From Chloroflexota bacterium (GTDB lineage: Bacteria > Chloroflexota > Dormibacteria > Dormibacterales > Dormibacteraceae): DNA of 34,078 nucleotides. How positions within the stretch are numbered: position 1 is the first letter of the stretch; each line of letters opens with the position of its first letter. The stretch is from NCBI GenBank assembly GCA_005883575.1, contig VBFH01000072.1, positions 1 through 34,078 on the forward strand. Reading direction: 5' to 3'. Positions 5,441 to 24,892 of the stretch are shown here, piece by piece. Under the pieces are notes generated by a model that saw only the letters and a program-made list of their open reading frames with translations, did no database searches and had not been told where the DNA came from. The translations under genes and the position numbers were made by a program.

Positions 5441-8242
5441 ATGGCCAAGAATCTCGCCGACCTCACCGGGGCTCGTGTTGTCAAGAACGGCAACGGGCAC
5501 TCGACCAAAGCCAAAGGACTTCGCTTTGGGCGATTCTTCACACCCCCGGGCAGCCACGCCTACGACCTCGTCGAGTGGGAGCGCCGAACCGCCGCGATCA
5601 CCGGTGAGAAGGGCCAGGTCATCTTCGAGCAAAAGGACGTGGAGGTCCCCCGCTCGTGGTCGCAGTTGGCGATCAACGTCGTCGCCCAAAAGTACTTCCG
5701 GGGCAGTCCCGGCAGCCCCGAGCGGGAAACGAGCGTGCGCCAGATCATCGACCGAGTGGTTGACACGCTGGCGAGATGGGGTCGCGATGGCGGCTACTTC
5801 GCCACCGAAGAGGACGTGCTCAACTGGGCCGAGGAGCTGCGCTTCCTGCTGGTCACCCAGCAGGCGTCGTTCAACAGCCCGGTCTGGTTCAACATCGGCG
5901 TTCCCGGTCGCTCGCAGCAGGCTTCGGCGTGCTTCATCAACTCGGTCAACGACTCGATGGAGTCGATCCTCGACCTCGCCAAGACCGAAGGCATGCTCTT
6001 CAAGTTCGGCAGCGGCACCGGCACGAACCTGTCGGTCCTGCGCTCGTCCAAGGAGCAGTTGTCGGGTGGCGGCACCGCGTCGGGCCCTGTCTCCTTCATG
6101 AAGGGCTACGACTCTTTTGCCGGCTCGATCAAGTCCGGCGGGACGACGCGGCGGGCGGCCAAGATGGTGATCCTCAACGCCGACCACCCAGATGTCATGG
6201 ACTTCATCCGCTGCAAGGCGGAGGAAGAGAAGAAGGCGTGGGCCTTGATCGAGGCGGGCTACAACGCGGGCTTCAATGTCCCGGGCGGCGCCTATGACTC
6301 GGTGCAGTTCCAGAACGCCAACCATTCCGTCCGCGTCGGCGACGACTTCATGCACGCAGTGATCGACGACAAGGAGTGGAAGACGAAGGCGGTGGTCGAC
6401 GGCCGGACGGTGGAGAACTACAAGGCGCGCGACGTCTGGCGAGAGATCGCCGACGCAGCGTGGATCTGCGGCGACCCCGGTCTCCAGTTCGACAGCACGA
6501 TCCAGGACTGGAACGTCGTCCCCAACACCGGCCGCATCAATGCCACGAACCCGTGCTCCGAGTTCGTCTTCCTGGACGACACCGCATGCAACCTGCTCTC
6601 GCTGAACTTGATGAAGTTCCAAAACGAGCTCGGCACGTTCGACGTCGAGCGGCTGCAGCGCGCGGTCGACGTCTGCTTCACCGGGCAGGAGATCCTCGTC
6701 TCCAACGCCTCCTACCCAACCCCGCAGATCGCCAAGAACTCAGAAGCGCTGCGCCCACTCGGGCTCGGCTACGCCAACATCGGCGCCCTGCTCATGTCGA
6801 TGGGACTCGCCTATGACTCCGACGAAGGAAGACGCTTCGCCGGCGCCCTGACGGCGATCATGACCGGGCGGGCTTTCGCCCAGTCGGCCCGGATGGCGCA
6901 GGTCAAGGGACCCTTCACCGAGTACGCGAAGAACCGCGAACCGATGCTGCGCGTGATGGAGAAGCACCGCGCCGCGGCCTACCAGCTCTCGACGTCGCCC
7001 GAGTCGGCGGAAGTCGTGAACGCTGCGCGCTCGACGTGGGACGACGCCGTCAAGCTAGGCCGGGCTCACGGCTATCGCAACGCCCAGGCCACCGTCCTCG
7101 CACCGACCGGCACGATCGGGCTGATGATGGACTGCGACACGACCGGCATCGAACCCGACCTGGCGCTGGTCAAGTACAAGAAGCTCGTCGGGGGCGGCCT
7201 CCTGAAGATCGTCAACACCACCGTCCCCGCCGCCCTCCGCAAGCTCGGCTACGACGAGGTCAAGGTCAAAGAGATCGTCGAGTACATCGACGAGAACGAC
7301 ACCATAGAGGGCGCGCCGCACCTGCAGGATGAGCACCTGAAGGTGTTCGACTGCGCGTTCAAGCCGGTCAAGGGCACGCGCTCGATCGCGCCGATGGGCC
7401 ACGTCCGGATGATGGCCGCCGTGCAGCCCTTCATCTCCGGCTCCATGTCCAAGACTGTGAACCTGCCCACCGACGCCACGGTCGAAGAGATCCAGCAGAC
7501 CTACGTGGAGTCGTGGAAGCTCGGCCTCAAGTGCATCGCGATCTACCGCGACGGCTGCAAGCGCTCACAGCCGCTCTCCACCTCGCTGGAGAAGGAGAAG
7601 AAGGTGGTCGCGGCCGCTCCGCAGGACGTCGAATACCGCGCGGTCCGGCGCAAGCTGCCCGACGAGCGAAAGGCGGTCACGCACAAGTTCGACATCGGCG
7701 GACACGAGGGCTACCTGACGGTCGGGCTCTACGAGGACGGCACCCCTGGCGAGCTGTTCGTGACCATGGCCAAGGAGGGTTCGACCATCTCGGGCCTGAT
7801 GGACGCGTTCGCCACCCAGACCTCCTACGCCCTGCAGTTCGGAGTCCCGCTCAAGTTCATGGTCGACAAGTTCAGCCACATGCGGTTTGAGCCCTCGGGC
7901 TTCACCAAGAACAGAGAGATCCCGATCGCCAAGTCGATCGTGGACTACATCTTCCGCTGGATGGCCAGCCACTTCCTTCCGGTGGAGGAGCAGGACGAGG
8001 TCGGCATCGTGCGGCGCGAAGACCCGAAGCCGGTTGAGCCCGAGTTCAAGGTCATCGCCGCGCCGGCAGCGCTGCCCGCGCAGGGCGCACAAGAAAGCAA
8101 AACCATCAACGGCACCGCGACCCAAAAGATCGCGTTCGTGAACACGGACGCGCCTGCGTGCCCGGACTGCGGTTCGATCACCGTGCGGTCAGGCTCTTGC
8201 TATAAGTGCCTGAACTGTGGAGCCACGACCGGCTGTAGCTGA
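5441..8242 (+). CDS. nrdJ: Vitamin B12-dependent (class II) ribonucleotide reductase
   Basis: The 933-residue protein reduces ribonucleotides to deoxyribonucleotides using adenosylcobalamin as the radical source, independently of oxygen. The catalytic barrel carries SACFIN (Cys164), NPCSE (370-374, with Cys372 and Glu374) and APTGTIGLMMDCDTTGIEP from residue 554. From about residue 720 comes the TSCPD-type domain (HKFDIGGHEGYLTVGLY...). The C-terminus is a cysteine-rich ribbon with CPDC (907-910), CYKCLNC (920-926) and a terminal Cys932, as in the long NrdJ type; these cysteines would shuttle reducing equivalents. Length and domain order are normal for the family. It is preceded by a strong promoter and long leader and followed by an excellent terminator, so it is probably monocistronic. 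A NiCoT-type permease at 22946-24022 could supply cobalt for the cofactor. Confidence 0.97.
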   Translation: MAKNLADLTGARVVKNGNGHSTKAKGLRFGRFFTPPGSHAYDLVEWERRTAAITGEKGQVIFEQKDVEVPRSWSQLAINVVAQKYFRGSPGSPERETSVRQIIDRVVDTLARWGRDGGYFATEEDVLNWAEELRFLLVTQQASFNSPVWFNIGVPGRSQQASACFINSVNDSMESILDLAKTEGMLFKFGSGTGTNLSVLRSSKEQLSGGGTASGPVSFMKGYDSFAGSIKSGGTTRRAAKMVILNADHPDVMDFIRCKAEEEKKAWALIEAGYNAGFNVPGGAYDSVQFQNANHSVRVGDDFMHAVIDDKEWKTKAVVDGRTVENYKARDVWREIADAAWICGDPGLQFDSTIQDWNVVPNTGRINATNPCSEFVFLDDTACNLLSLNLMKFQNELGTFDVERLQRAVDVCFTGQEILVSNASYPTPQIAKNSEALRPLGLGYANIGALLMSMGLAYDSDEGRRFAGALTAIMTGRAFAQSARMAQVKGPFTEYAKNREPMLRVMEKHRAAAYQLSTSPESAEVVNAARSTWDDAVKLGRAHGYRNAQATVLAPTGTIGLMMDCDTTGIEPDLALVKYKKLVGGGLLKIVNTTVPAALRKLGYDEVKVKEIVEYIDENDTIEGAPHLQDEHLKVFDCAFKPVKGTRSIAPMGHVRMMAAVQPFISGSMSKTVNLPTDATVEEIQQTYVESWKLGLKCIAIYRDGCKRSQPLSTSLEKEKKVVAAAPQDVEYRAVRRKLPDERKAVTHKFDIGGHEGYLTVGLYEDGTPGELFVTMAKEGSTISGLMDAFATQTSYALQFGVPLKFMVDKFSHMRFEPSGFTKNREIPIAKSIVDYIFRWMASHFLPVEEQDEVGIVRREDPKPVEPEFKVIAAPAALPAQGAQESKTINGTATQKIAFVNTDAPACPDCGSITVRSGSCYKCLNCGATTGCS

Positions 8243-22435: not shown

Positions 22436-22949
22436 TGCTGTGGAGGCGGGCGACTGGATCGAGTCCCGGTTGCAATCGTTCGGCAGCGGCACGGCCGGCT
22501 CCGTAGTTCCGACTGGTTTTCCCGCCTACGCGCGAAGCGAGTCACGCGCAGGCCTGGCCGCTGTGCTGGCTCGGCACACCTCGACGCCGCACCGGTGCTG
22601 GTTCTGTCTTTGGGATGGCTACGGCTATCTGCATGGCGCCTCGGCGGTCATGTACTTCTGGGCATCGGATGACCCTCATCCTCAACCTCCGCCCCCTCCG
22701 CCCCCGCCGCCGCTGCTCAGGAAGAGCCGAGTTCGGCTACCGAACCGCGACTACCTCCTCTTCACGGGATCAGCAGCTGAGGCCGAAGGCTGGGACGACG
22801 GACCTAACCTGTGGTGGCCGGACGACAGGGCCTGGTGCGCCGCTGCCGAGATCGATCTCGACTACACGCTGATCGGTGGATCCAGTGAGCTGCGCGATGA
22901 GCTGGTCCGTGCAGGGGCCAGGCCGATCAAAGTCGACGACCCGCTCTAG
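22422..22949 (+). CDS. Conserved hypothetical protein with polyproline run
   Basis: I do not recognise a function. The 175-residue protein (GTG 22422; ATG 22407 is the alternative) resembles an actinobacterial-type family of unknown role: DWIESRLQSF, SVVPTGFPAYAR, TPHRCWFCLWDGYG, LPNRDYLLFTG and NLWWPDDRAWCAAAEIDLDYTLIGGS are its conserved-looking blocks, rich in Trp. It has no signal peptide or membrane segment. Nine consecutive prolines (codons at 22686-22712) would stall ribosomes unless EF-P acts. It overlaps the lactonase by 14 nt and is probably cotranscribed, but whether it belongs to sugar metabolism is unknown. Its stop interlocks with that of the Ni/Co permease gene. Confidence 0.75.
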   Translation: MTPSDAVEAGDWIESRLQSFGSGTAGSVVPTGFPAYARSESRAGLAAVLARHTSTPHRCWFCLWDGYGYLHGASAVMYFWASDDPHPQPPPPPPPPPLLRKSRVRLPNRDYLLFTGSAAEAEGWDDGPNLWWPDDRAWCAAAEIDLDYTLIGGSSELRDELVRAGARPIKVDDPL

Positions 22950-24022
22950 GCGACCTTGTCGACGGCGGCGGACCAGCGCTCGTCGATCCTGCGGACCTTG
23001 TAGATCACGAACGCCGCTCCCCACGTGATCACAAACGCCGCGACGATGACGTAGCCGGCCACGCCGAGGAAGTTGAACCGCGCGACCTGGTCAAAGAAAG
23101 CACCATGGAGTCCAAGGACCTGGGTCAGGATCTGCATCAGCTCGACCACGCCGATAAACAGCGCCACGAACACGGACAGCGATGTGATCGTCAGGTTGTA
23201 GAACACCTTGCGGATTGGACTCGAGAAGGCCCACGAGTACGCCTTGGACATGAAAGCGCCATCCATCGTGTCCATCAACGACATGCCGGCGGCGAAGATC
23301 AACGGCAGGGAGATGATCGCGGCGAACGGCAAGCCCTGCGCCGCGGCGCCGGCGGAGACCGCAAGAAACGCAACCTCAGACGCGGTGTCGAAGCCAAGGC
23401 CGAACAGAAAACCAATGGGATACATCTGCCAGCTGTGCTCGATGACGCGGAACAAGCGGCCGAAGATCCTCGTCATCAGCCCACCGGCGGTCAGCTCGTG
23501 CTCGAGACCCTGGCGATCGTACTCACCGTTGCGCATCCTCCGATAGACCCGGATGAGGTCGACGAGGACGAGCAGGTTGAGGATGCCGATGAGGACCAGA
23601 AAGGCGCCGGAGACCGAGGTGCCGATCGCGCCGCCGATGCTGCGCAGCTCTCCACCATCGCCGACCACACCCTGGACGATCCACTTGACTGCGAGTCCCA
23701 AAGCGACCGCGACCACGAACACGACAGTGGAATGGCCGAGGGAGAAGAAGAATCCCACCCCGATCGGCTTCTGACCTCCCTGGAGCAGCCTGCGTGTCGT
23801 GTTGTCGATGGCTGAGATGTGGTCGGCGTCAAACGCATGTCTCAGGCCCAGCATGTAGGCGACGCCGCCCAGCCACACGAACCCTGGGTGGCTTGCCCCG
23901 TAGGCGAGCAATAAGCCCCAGCCCAGCAGATGGAGAAGGCCGACCGAGCCGAAGAACCCCGCCAGGCGCCTGCGCTCTCCGCGGTCAAAGGACTGGGTGA
24001 GCAGCATCCTCATGGAGGCCAC
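22946..24022 (-). CDS. NiCoT-family nickel/cobalt permease (HoxN/NixA)
   Basis: A 358-residue membrane protein with eight or so helices. The signature RHAFDADHISAIDN (61-74) in the second helix holds the metal-selecting histidines and aspartates, and FFFSLGHSTVVF is the second family motif. GLGFDTASEVAFLA and AAGMSLMDTMDGAFM complete the pattern. It imports Ni2+ or Co2+ using the proton motive force; selectivity cannot be told. Cobalt would suit the B12-dependent ribonucleotide reductase in this window. The start is GTG 24022, with ATG 24013 and 24007 possible; a TAGGCT hexamer 6 nt before the GTG suggests leaderless transcription. A large nested inverted repeat covers the promoter. Confidence 0.93.
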   Translation of the reverse strand: MASMRMLLTQSFDRGERRRLAGFFGSVGLLHLLGWGLLLAYGASHPGFVWLGGVAYMLGLRHAFDADHISAIDNTTRRLLQGGQKPIGVGFFFSLGHSTVVFVVAVALGLAVKWIVQGVVGDGGELRSIGGAIGTSVSGAFLVLIGILNLLVLVDLIRVYRRMRNGEYDRQGLEHELTAGGLMTRIFGRLFRVIEHSWQMYPIGFLFGLGFDTASEVAFLAVSAGAAAQGLPFAAIISLPLIFAAGMSLMDTMDGAFMSKAYSWAFSSPIRKVFYNLTITSLSVFVALFIGVVELMQILTQVLGLHGAFFDQVARFNFLGVAGYVIVAAFVITWGAAFVIYKVRRIDERWSAAVDKVA

Positions 24023-24028
24023 TGACAG

Positions 24029-24058
24029 AGCCTAAGCCTTATCGCGACAAGGTCGCAA
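24029..24058 (-). promoter_or_regulatory. Promoter of the Ni/Co permease gene
   Basis: On the minus strand TTGCGA (24058-24053), an 18-bp spacer and TAGGCT (24034-24029), ending 6 nt before GTG 24022. The -35 falls inside one arm of the inverted repeat at 24051-24094. Confidence 0.45.
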
Positions 24059-24094
24059 CTGGGTATTCAAATTACCCCCGGAATTGTTGCGACC
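24044..24094. promoter_or_regulatory. Nested inverted repeat, candidate metal-responsive operator or leader
   Basis: The outer arms GGTCGCAAC (24051-24059) and GTTGCGACC (24086-24094) are a perfect 9-bp inverted repeat. Inside lies GGGTA (24061-24065) / TACCC (24073-24077). A third partial arm GCGAC (24044-24048) can pair with GTCGC (24052-24056) instead. It sits upstream of and over the Ni/Co permease promoter. Confidence 0.6.
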
Positions 24095-24143
24095 GGTTCT
24101 CGGTAAATCTCGTGGTCCATCCCGCGCCGTTGGCGTGGGGCTG

Positions 24144-24175: not shown

Positions 24176-24892
24176 ATGGACCTCGAACAACTTCCGCCCC
24201 AGCTCCGCCCCTTCCTCCGATCCCTTGACCACGCCATGAAGAGCCGCGAACCTGCGATCCGGGCCAGGGTGGATCATCTGCGCACGGCCAACCCGCTCTA
24301 CACGAACCATCAACTTGCCCTCGCGCTCATCCGTTCCACCCGGCGCAGAGTGGCGGCCACAGGCGCGCTGAGCGGCGCAGCGTCGGTGGTGCCGGCGGTG
24401 GGCACCGCGCTCGCCATCGGCACCGTCACCAGCCAAACGCTGTACGCGCTCGAGCAGGAGATCGAGCTCGTGCTCGGGATCGCCATGATCTTCGGCCACG
24501 AGCTCAGCGGTACGGACGACCGCGTGCTCGAGGCGCTTGTGGTGGTCGGCGTCACCAGCGGCGCGTTGAAGCTGCGCGAGGACGTGATGGTCGCGGGCGG
24601 AGAGCGGCTCGCGATCGCGGCCTTCCGGCGCATGCCGAGTCTCTTGCTCGTGCATGGTGGCGGCCGGATCGTGACCCGGATTCTCTTTCGTTTCGCGACC
24701 AGCGGAGCCGCCAAGGTGGTGGCGCGGGTCATCCCCCTTGGCGTCGGGATCGGAGTTGGCGCCGGGTTCGACTGGCTGGCCGTGACCGGACTCGGTCGCG
24801 CGGCCATGCGCTACTACGGTCCAGGCGGTCCTGGAGCGCGACCCCTGCTACTTGCTCACGAAGATGCCTCGCACGTCGAAACTGGCCGCTGA
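24176..24892 (+). CDS. EcsC-like helical protein of unknown function
   Basis: The 238-residue protein has a helical N-terminus (RARVDHLRTANPLYTNHQLALALIRSTRRR) followed by glycine/alanine-rich hydrophobic segments: VAATGALSGAASVVPAVGTALAIG, VLGIAMIFGHEL, and a later VVARVIPLGVGIGVGAGFDWL. This resembles EcsC-family proteins, which are membrane-associated and not biochemically defined. The resemblance is by pattern only, so the name is tentative. There is no signal peptide. The 3' end overlaps the convergent DNA ligase gene by 45 nt, and the last 15 residues (LLAHEDASHVETGR) look unlike the rest, so the natural end may have been extended by loss of an earlier stop. Confidence 0.7.
   Translation: MDLEQLPPQLRPFLRSLDHAMKSREPAIRARVDHLRTANPLYTNHQLALALIRSTRRRVAATGALSGAASVVPAVGTALAIGTVTSQTLYALEQEIELVLGIAMIFGHELSGTDDRVLEALVVVGVTSGALKLREDVMVAGGERLAIAAFRRMPSLLLVHGGGRIVTRILFRFATSGAAKVVARVIPLGVGIGVGAGFDWLAVTGLGRAAMRYYGPGGPGARPLLLAHEDASHVETGR

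Follow-up and report, generated by a model that had tools for sequence, protein, structure and literature searches.

The promoter of a nickel/cobalt permease (NiCoT) gene in this genome carries a conserved dyad, O1, which sequence comparison indicates is very probably a Nur-box-type operator through which a Fur-family metalloregulator represses the permease. This reading is favoured because the dyad is conserved over the -35 hexamer, because it is nearly unique in the genome and because Fur-family genes often lie near NiCoT. The window, by which we mean the whole stretch of 34,078 nucleotides analysed here, also contains a nested inverted repeat over the same promoter that an earlier note had put forward as the regulatory element. 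All of its arms (outer, inner and a third, competing one) are present exactly where they had been placed. However, the function does not lie in the nested hairpin, and the real conserved object is a different dyad, read on the minus strand, that is composed of one outer arm and what the earlier note called a third partial arm. The features are listed in Table 1.

Table 1. Features of the NiCoT promoter region and related genes (positions in the window unless another contig is named)
Feature	Position	Strand	Basis or remark
NiCoT nickel/cobalt permease gene (HoxN/HupN/NixA family, NicT-like)	22946-24022	minus	Pfam and NCBIfam
-10 element TAGGCT, inferred, 6 nt before GTG start codon	24029-24034	minus	column identity 0.93
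-35 hexamer TTGCGA, inferred, identical with O1 left half-site	24053-24058	minus	spacing
O1, TTGCGAC-CTT-GTCGCGA, Nur-box-type dyad (TTGC-N9-GCAA geometry)	24042-24058; extended 23-nt site 24039-24061	minus	column identity, profile match
Third arm TCGCGAC	24042-24048		can pair with 24052-24058 in place of the 24086 arm
Outer arm 1, GGTCGCAAC	24051-24059		pairs 9/9 with outer arm 2 in the window
Inner arms GGGTA (24061-24065) and TACCC (24073-24077)	24061-24077	none	chance, not conserved
Conserved TTTGAATAC between O1 and O2	24063-24071	minus	column identity about 0.5-0.9 per base
Outer arm 2, GTTGCGACC	24086-24094		pairs 9/9 with outer arm 1 in the window
O2, GAGA-N5-TCGCA, weaker operator-like site	24088-24101	minus	holds part of outer arm 2
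Divergent gene, 238 aa, function unassigned	24176-24892	plus	neighbour of NiCoT
Vitamin B12-dependent class II ribonucleotide reductase	5441-8242	plus	
Candidate Fur, 147 aa	contig C104 of the source genome, 15756-16199	minus	Fur-family gene

The permease gene matches PF03824 NicO (4.4e-97) and scores above the cut-off for TIGR00802, and its score for NF052500 NicT is 425.7 bits, which is under that model's cut-off of 450. There is a single copy in the source genome (G000, 95.5% complete), and 50 of the 61 genomes surveyed have a NiCoT match. The named relatives of the gene belong to MAGs classified as Chloroflexi, Candidatus Dormiibacterota or Dormiibacter, which makes Dormibacterota the most likely origin of the window. 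The divergent gene has no match in Pfam or NCBIfam, and it is retained beside NiCoT in most members of family f1 (L001-L013, L015-L020, L030 and others).

Judged as an inverted repeat alone, the outer-arm repeat is near chance. There are 32 perfect 9-bp inverted repeats with a loop of at most 60 in the window, compared with 12-31 in each of ten Markov shuffles, and 3.7% of shuffled intergenic regions hold such a repeat. Alignment with orthologous upstream regions, which had been proposed as a check on arm conservation, gives a split result, wherein the half-sites are conserved but the hairpin pairing is not. Outer-arm pairing is 9/9 in the window only and falls to 5-8/9 in 19 orthologues, and inner-arm pairing is likewise complete (5/5) in the window only and falls to 0-3/5 in the same 19. 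Because neither pairing is kept, the hairpin simply results from the proximity of two sites, O1 and O2, that have half-site sequence in common, and the proposed nested structure with alternative arms is abandoned. The GGGTA/TACCC arms were also considered as a CsoR/RcnR-like site, and this was rejected since they are not conserved.

The NiCoT transcript is probably leaderless, with the start codon 6 nt after the -10 element as judged by position. If the mRNA is indeed leaderless, the repeats lie outside the transcript, and thus the element would act as DNA rather than as RNA. A DNA or RNA structure that switches between the alternative arms of the nested repeat receives almost no credence from us. 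Although the 9-bp arms are perfect in the window, both pairings are lost in orthologues, the inferred transcription start is downstream of this region, and comparable repeats are about equally frequent in shuffled sequence.

The conserved footprint was defined by aligning 20 NiCoT upstream regions, all of them from family f1. Read along the coding strand, the block they share is A-g-TTGCGAC-NNN-GTCGCgAtAA-ggn-tTAGGCT, and the start codon comes next. The dyad core (24042-24058) has a mean pairwise column identity of 0.87 and the -10 element one of 0.93, compared with only 0.48 for the stretch between O1 and O2. Among the 14 half-site columns of O1, 13 are invariant or identical in 19 of 20 sequences, and between 5 and 7 of the 7 dyad pairs are kept in every one of the 20. 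With half-sites retained across all of these upstream regions, the suggestion that a conserved regulatory site overlies the NiCoT promoter is borne out. The O1 site is also present at NiCoT in most relatives, and one dyad pair is changed on both sides between families, from GAC..GTC in f1 to GAA..TTC in f3. In place of a complete dyad, Ca. Dormiibacter and related f1 genera (L024-L027, L048) carry only the half-conserved TTGCGAC-N3-GTCCTGATA or a weaker version of it. In two of these loci, a fur gene is nonetheless located directly after NiCoT.

O1 covers the -35 hexamer and the spacer of the NiCoT promoter as predicted from sequence. The earlier placement of one hairpin arm over the -35 element agrees with this map, in that outer arm 1 spans the whole hexamer. 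The distance from TTGCGA to the -10 element is 18 nt in f1, where the latter is TAGGCT, and 16-18 nt in f3, where it is TATACT. In orthologues from genus g1, the -10 element is 6-8 nt from the start codon. A generic sigma-70 promoter scan gave no match at the NiCoT promoter, and the promoter call therefore rests on conservation and spacing.

It is quite improbable that the conserved block is promoter sequence alone (-35, spacer and -10) with no repressor binding to it. The left half-site of O1 does serve also as the -35 hexamer, and TTGCGAC-N3-GTC..GATA is retained in genera whose dyad is broken. However, a promoter spacer has no need of a palindrome, and the dyad symmetry survives a two-sided change between families. 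In addition, the sites in Actinomycetota described below are located at variable distances from the start codon (about -40 to -145), while their internal spacing is fixed at 9.

O2 is the weaker of the two sites. Its TCGCA and GA columns are invariant or identical in 19 of 20 orthologues, a full palindrome is present in L002 (TGCGAACAGTTCGCA), and there is good symmetry in L010, L011 and L017. The centres of O1 and O2 are 45 bp apart in the window, with O2 upstream, and about 44 bp apart in most relatives. O2 is retained in L014, where the divergent gene is absent, but is weak or lost in L013 and L021-L023; it may or may not be an operator of the divergent gene alone. The conserved TTTGAATAC between the two sites is perhaps a proximal UP element, to judge from its position only.

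The architecture of O1 resembles that of the Nur box of Streptomyces coelicolor, which is published as a tTGCaa-N5-ttGCAA inverted repeat and thus has TTGC-N9-GCAA geometry (PMC3919588). Both dyads overlap a promoter, and the Nur system likewise joins a Fur-family regulator to metal uptake as its target. O1 itself reads TTGC-GACCTTGTC-GCGA, and so has the Nur-box geometry with one outer-base mismatch (G for A) and overlaps the predicted promoter of the NiCoT gene. The exact form, TTGC-N9-GCAA, is found in relatives including L013, L018, L019 and most members of f3. The inner bases of O1-type sites are GA..TC (TTGCGA-N5-TCGCAA), in contrast to aa..tt in the Nur box. There is also a difference in targets, since those named for Streptomyces Nur in the literature consulted are nikABCDE and sodF, and here the target is NiCoT.

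To examine specificity, a sequence-only profile, R1, was built from 30 sites, including the window's own. R1 has one match in the source genome at E<=10, which is the NiCoT site; its own score is not independent because that site is in the training set, and the informative part of the scan is the absence of competing matches. At E<=0.5, R1 has matches in 37 of the 61 genomes, almost always at NiCoT, and it has none in the 11 genomes that lack a NiCoT match. A search with a looser pattern brought up a single additional good palindrome in the source genome, located where a dapF-like gene near fur begins.

The same geometry recurs in Actinomycetota. YTGC-N9-GCAR is present in 39 of 58 actinobacterial NiCoT upstream regions and in 40 of 3861 control tiles (1%) from the same loci, an enrichment for which the Fisher p value is 8e-57 by a statistic that ignores relatedness. 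This pattern was chosen after some of the actinobacterial sites had been seen, and a spacing control guards against the resulting bias: other spacings occur in 0-4 of the 58 upstream regions. One geometry therefore marks NiCoT promoters in both Dormibacterota and Actinomycetota.

There are two Fur-family genes in the source genome, on contigs C9 and C104. The C9 gene and a metal ABC transporter ATPase/permease pair are divergently arranged, a gene context that makes this Fur Zur-like. The C104 gene is located after a pepQ-type peptidase gene, as are most of its f1 orthologues, and it is not adjacent to NiCoT in this genome; linkage between a Fur-family gene and NiCoT is seen in relatives only (Dormiibacter, f2, f3 and Actinomycetota). 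In Dormiibacter, a member of f1, NiCoT is followed immediately by a gene whose product is a Fur protein sharing 45-48% identity with the C104 protein. A fur gene is divergent from NiCoT in family f2, an Acidimicrobiaceae MAG, two Nocardia and Mycobacterium sherrisii, and the gap shared by the two genes holds a matching or near-matching site. In f3, fur is about 1-2 kb from NiCoT in most genomes and 12 kb away in one.

These observations suggest how the site might function. When cells have ample metal, a Fur-family dimer loaded with it (most likely of the C104 protein) would bind O1 and hide the -35 hexamer from RNA polymerase, such that transcription of NiCoT stops. When nickel or cobalt falls, the dimer would leave O1 and uptake would resume. 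Perhaps O2 provides for cooperative binding or for action on the divergent gene.

The earlier note had proposed that the site is read by a nickel or cobalt sensor of an unrecognised kind. A metal sensor is still the natural reader, but no new class of sensor is needed, because the geometry of the site, the genes around NiCoT and the few available candidates all point to a Fur-family, Nur-like repressor. It is improbable that a metal sensor from outside the Fur family (ArsR/SmtB, CsoR/RcnR or MerR) favours TTGC-N9-GCAA and reads O1. Searches by family covered Fur-family and NikR genes only, in the source genome and among the neighbours of NiCoT, which leaves some room for such a protein. However, the regulator genes found beside NiCoT and the site are of the Fur family in several separate lineages, and the O1 geometry agrees with the published Nur box. 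A very improbable reader is the Zur-like C9 protein, in which case the regulon that includes NiCoT would be a zinc or mixed one. No Fur-family protein besides this one and the C104 protein was found in the genome, but the C9 gene is divergent from a metal ABC transporter, which is the expected place for Zur, and the Furs encoded beside NiCoT are closer to the C104 protein than to the C9 protein.

NikR operators carry the half-sites GTATGA..TCATAC. They also serve in the repression of nickel importers, but the site here does not match these half-sites, and there is no match to NikR_C in any of the 61 genomes, the source genome included, under conditions where positive controls gave matches. NikR was thus rejected as the reader, in agreement with the earlier statement that this is not a NikR site. 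In other bacteria, NikR is the predicted repressor of nickel-specific NiCoT (PMC2667541).

Cobalamin riboswitches are known regulators of cobalt transporters, and so have a target type in common with the NiCoT element. An Rfam scan of the window returned one tRNA only and no riboswitch. With no Rfam match upstream of the NiCoT gene, a riboswitch reading was rejected, as the earlier note had also concluded for the cobalamin class; unlike the targets of such riboswitches, the transcript here is apparently leaderless. Zur boxes likewise are Fur-family dyads over metal-importer promoters, but their half-site differs from that of O1, and the Zur-like gene here adjoins its own ABC transporter.

The C104 protein departs from S. 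coelicolor Nur at the nickel site, whose three histidines we take to be H70, H72 and H126. At the aligned positions it has A, H and E, and thus retains one of the three, with AAHLGEG and RTEV in place of HAHLGHG and MKHF in Nur. All three histidines are present in the Fur homologues of f2 and Acidimicrobiaceae, and these proteins join S. coelicolor Nur in the Fur tree (91/95). The C104 and f1 Furs are placed apart from Streptomyces Nur in this tree, whose deep forks are poorly supported and whose branches are long. S. coelicolor Nur has a four-histidine M site in addition to its three-histidine nickel site, and the geometry of the nickel site is possibly a crystallisation artefact (PMC7055735).

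Nickel is the default guess for the metal that would be sensed, taken over from Nur, and cobalt is to be regarded as a real alternative. Searches of the source genome for urease, NiFe-hydrogenase and CobN found none, and nickel and cobalt enzymes are uninformative as a guide because of this absence. The B12-dependent ribonucleotide reductase encoded in the window indicates a possible cobalt demand. We consider it unlikely, yet worth stating, that the Nur-like, Fur-family regulator of f1 has changed its metal, sensing cobalt and repressing a cobalt importer. This is suggested because two of the three Nur nickel-site histidines are gone, urease, NiFe-hydrogenase and CobN were not found, and the B12-dependent reductase is present. 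If the f1 regulator does sense cobalt, it would be a Fur-family sensor in which the metal has changed and the operator geometry has been kept.

Nur-type control is a known kind of system, here most likely in a new lineage and with NiCoT as its target. No description of Nur control of NiCoT was found in the literature searched, and most subscription papers and regulon databases were outside that search. As far as found, the element is ordinary in principle and newly mapped in this bacterial group. For nickel/cobalt uptake in a soil phylum with few cultured members, it provides an operator that can be tested and a specific candidate for the regulator, and a single Nur-type signature ties the NiCoT promoters of Dormibacterota to those of Actinomycetota.

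The second Nur-type palindrome (L058:4214-4236, equivalent to C104 13213-13235 in the source genome) covers the GTG start of the dapF-like gene, which is separated from fur by about 2.6 kb. Since the right half of the palindrome is coding, some of its conservation may be at the protein level. It is kept in the g1 relatives that cover this region and is degraded in one. The gene itself (L058:4225-5058) is the only DapF found in the source genome, and its product, like those of relatives, has Ser at two positions (KSGNGLR and LASGTS) that presumably correspond to the catalytic Cys residues of DapF.
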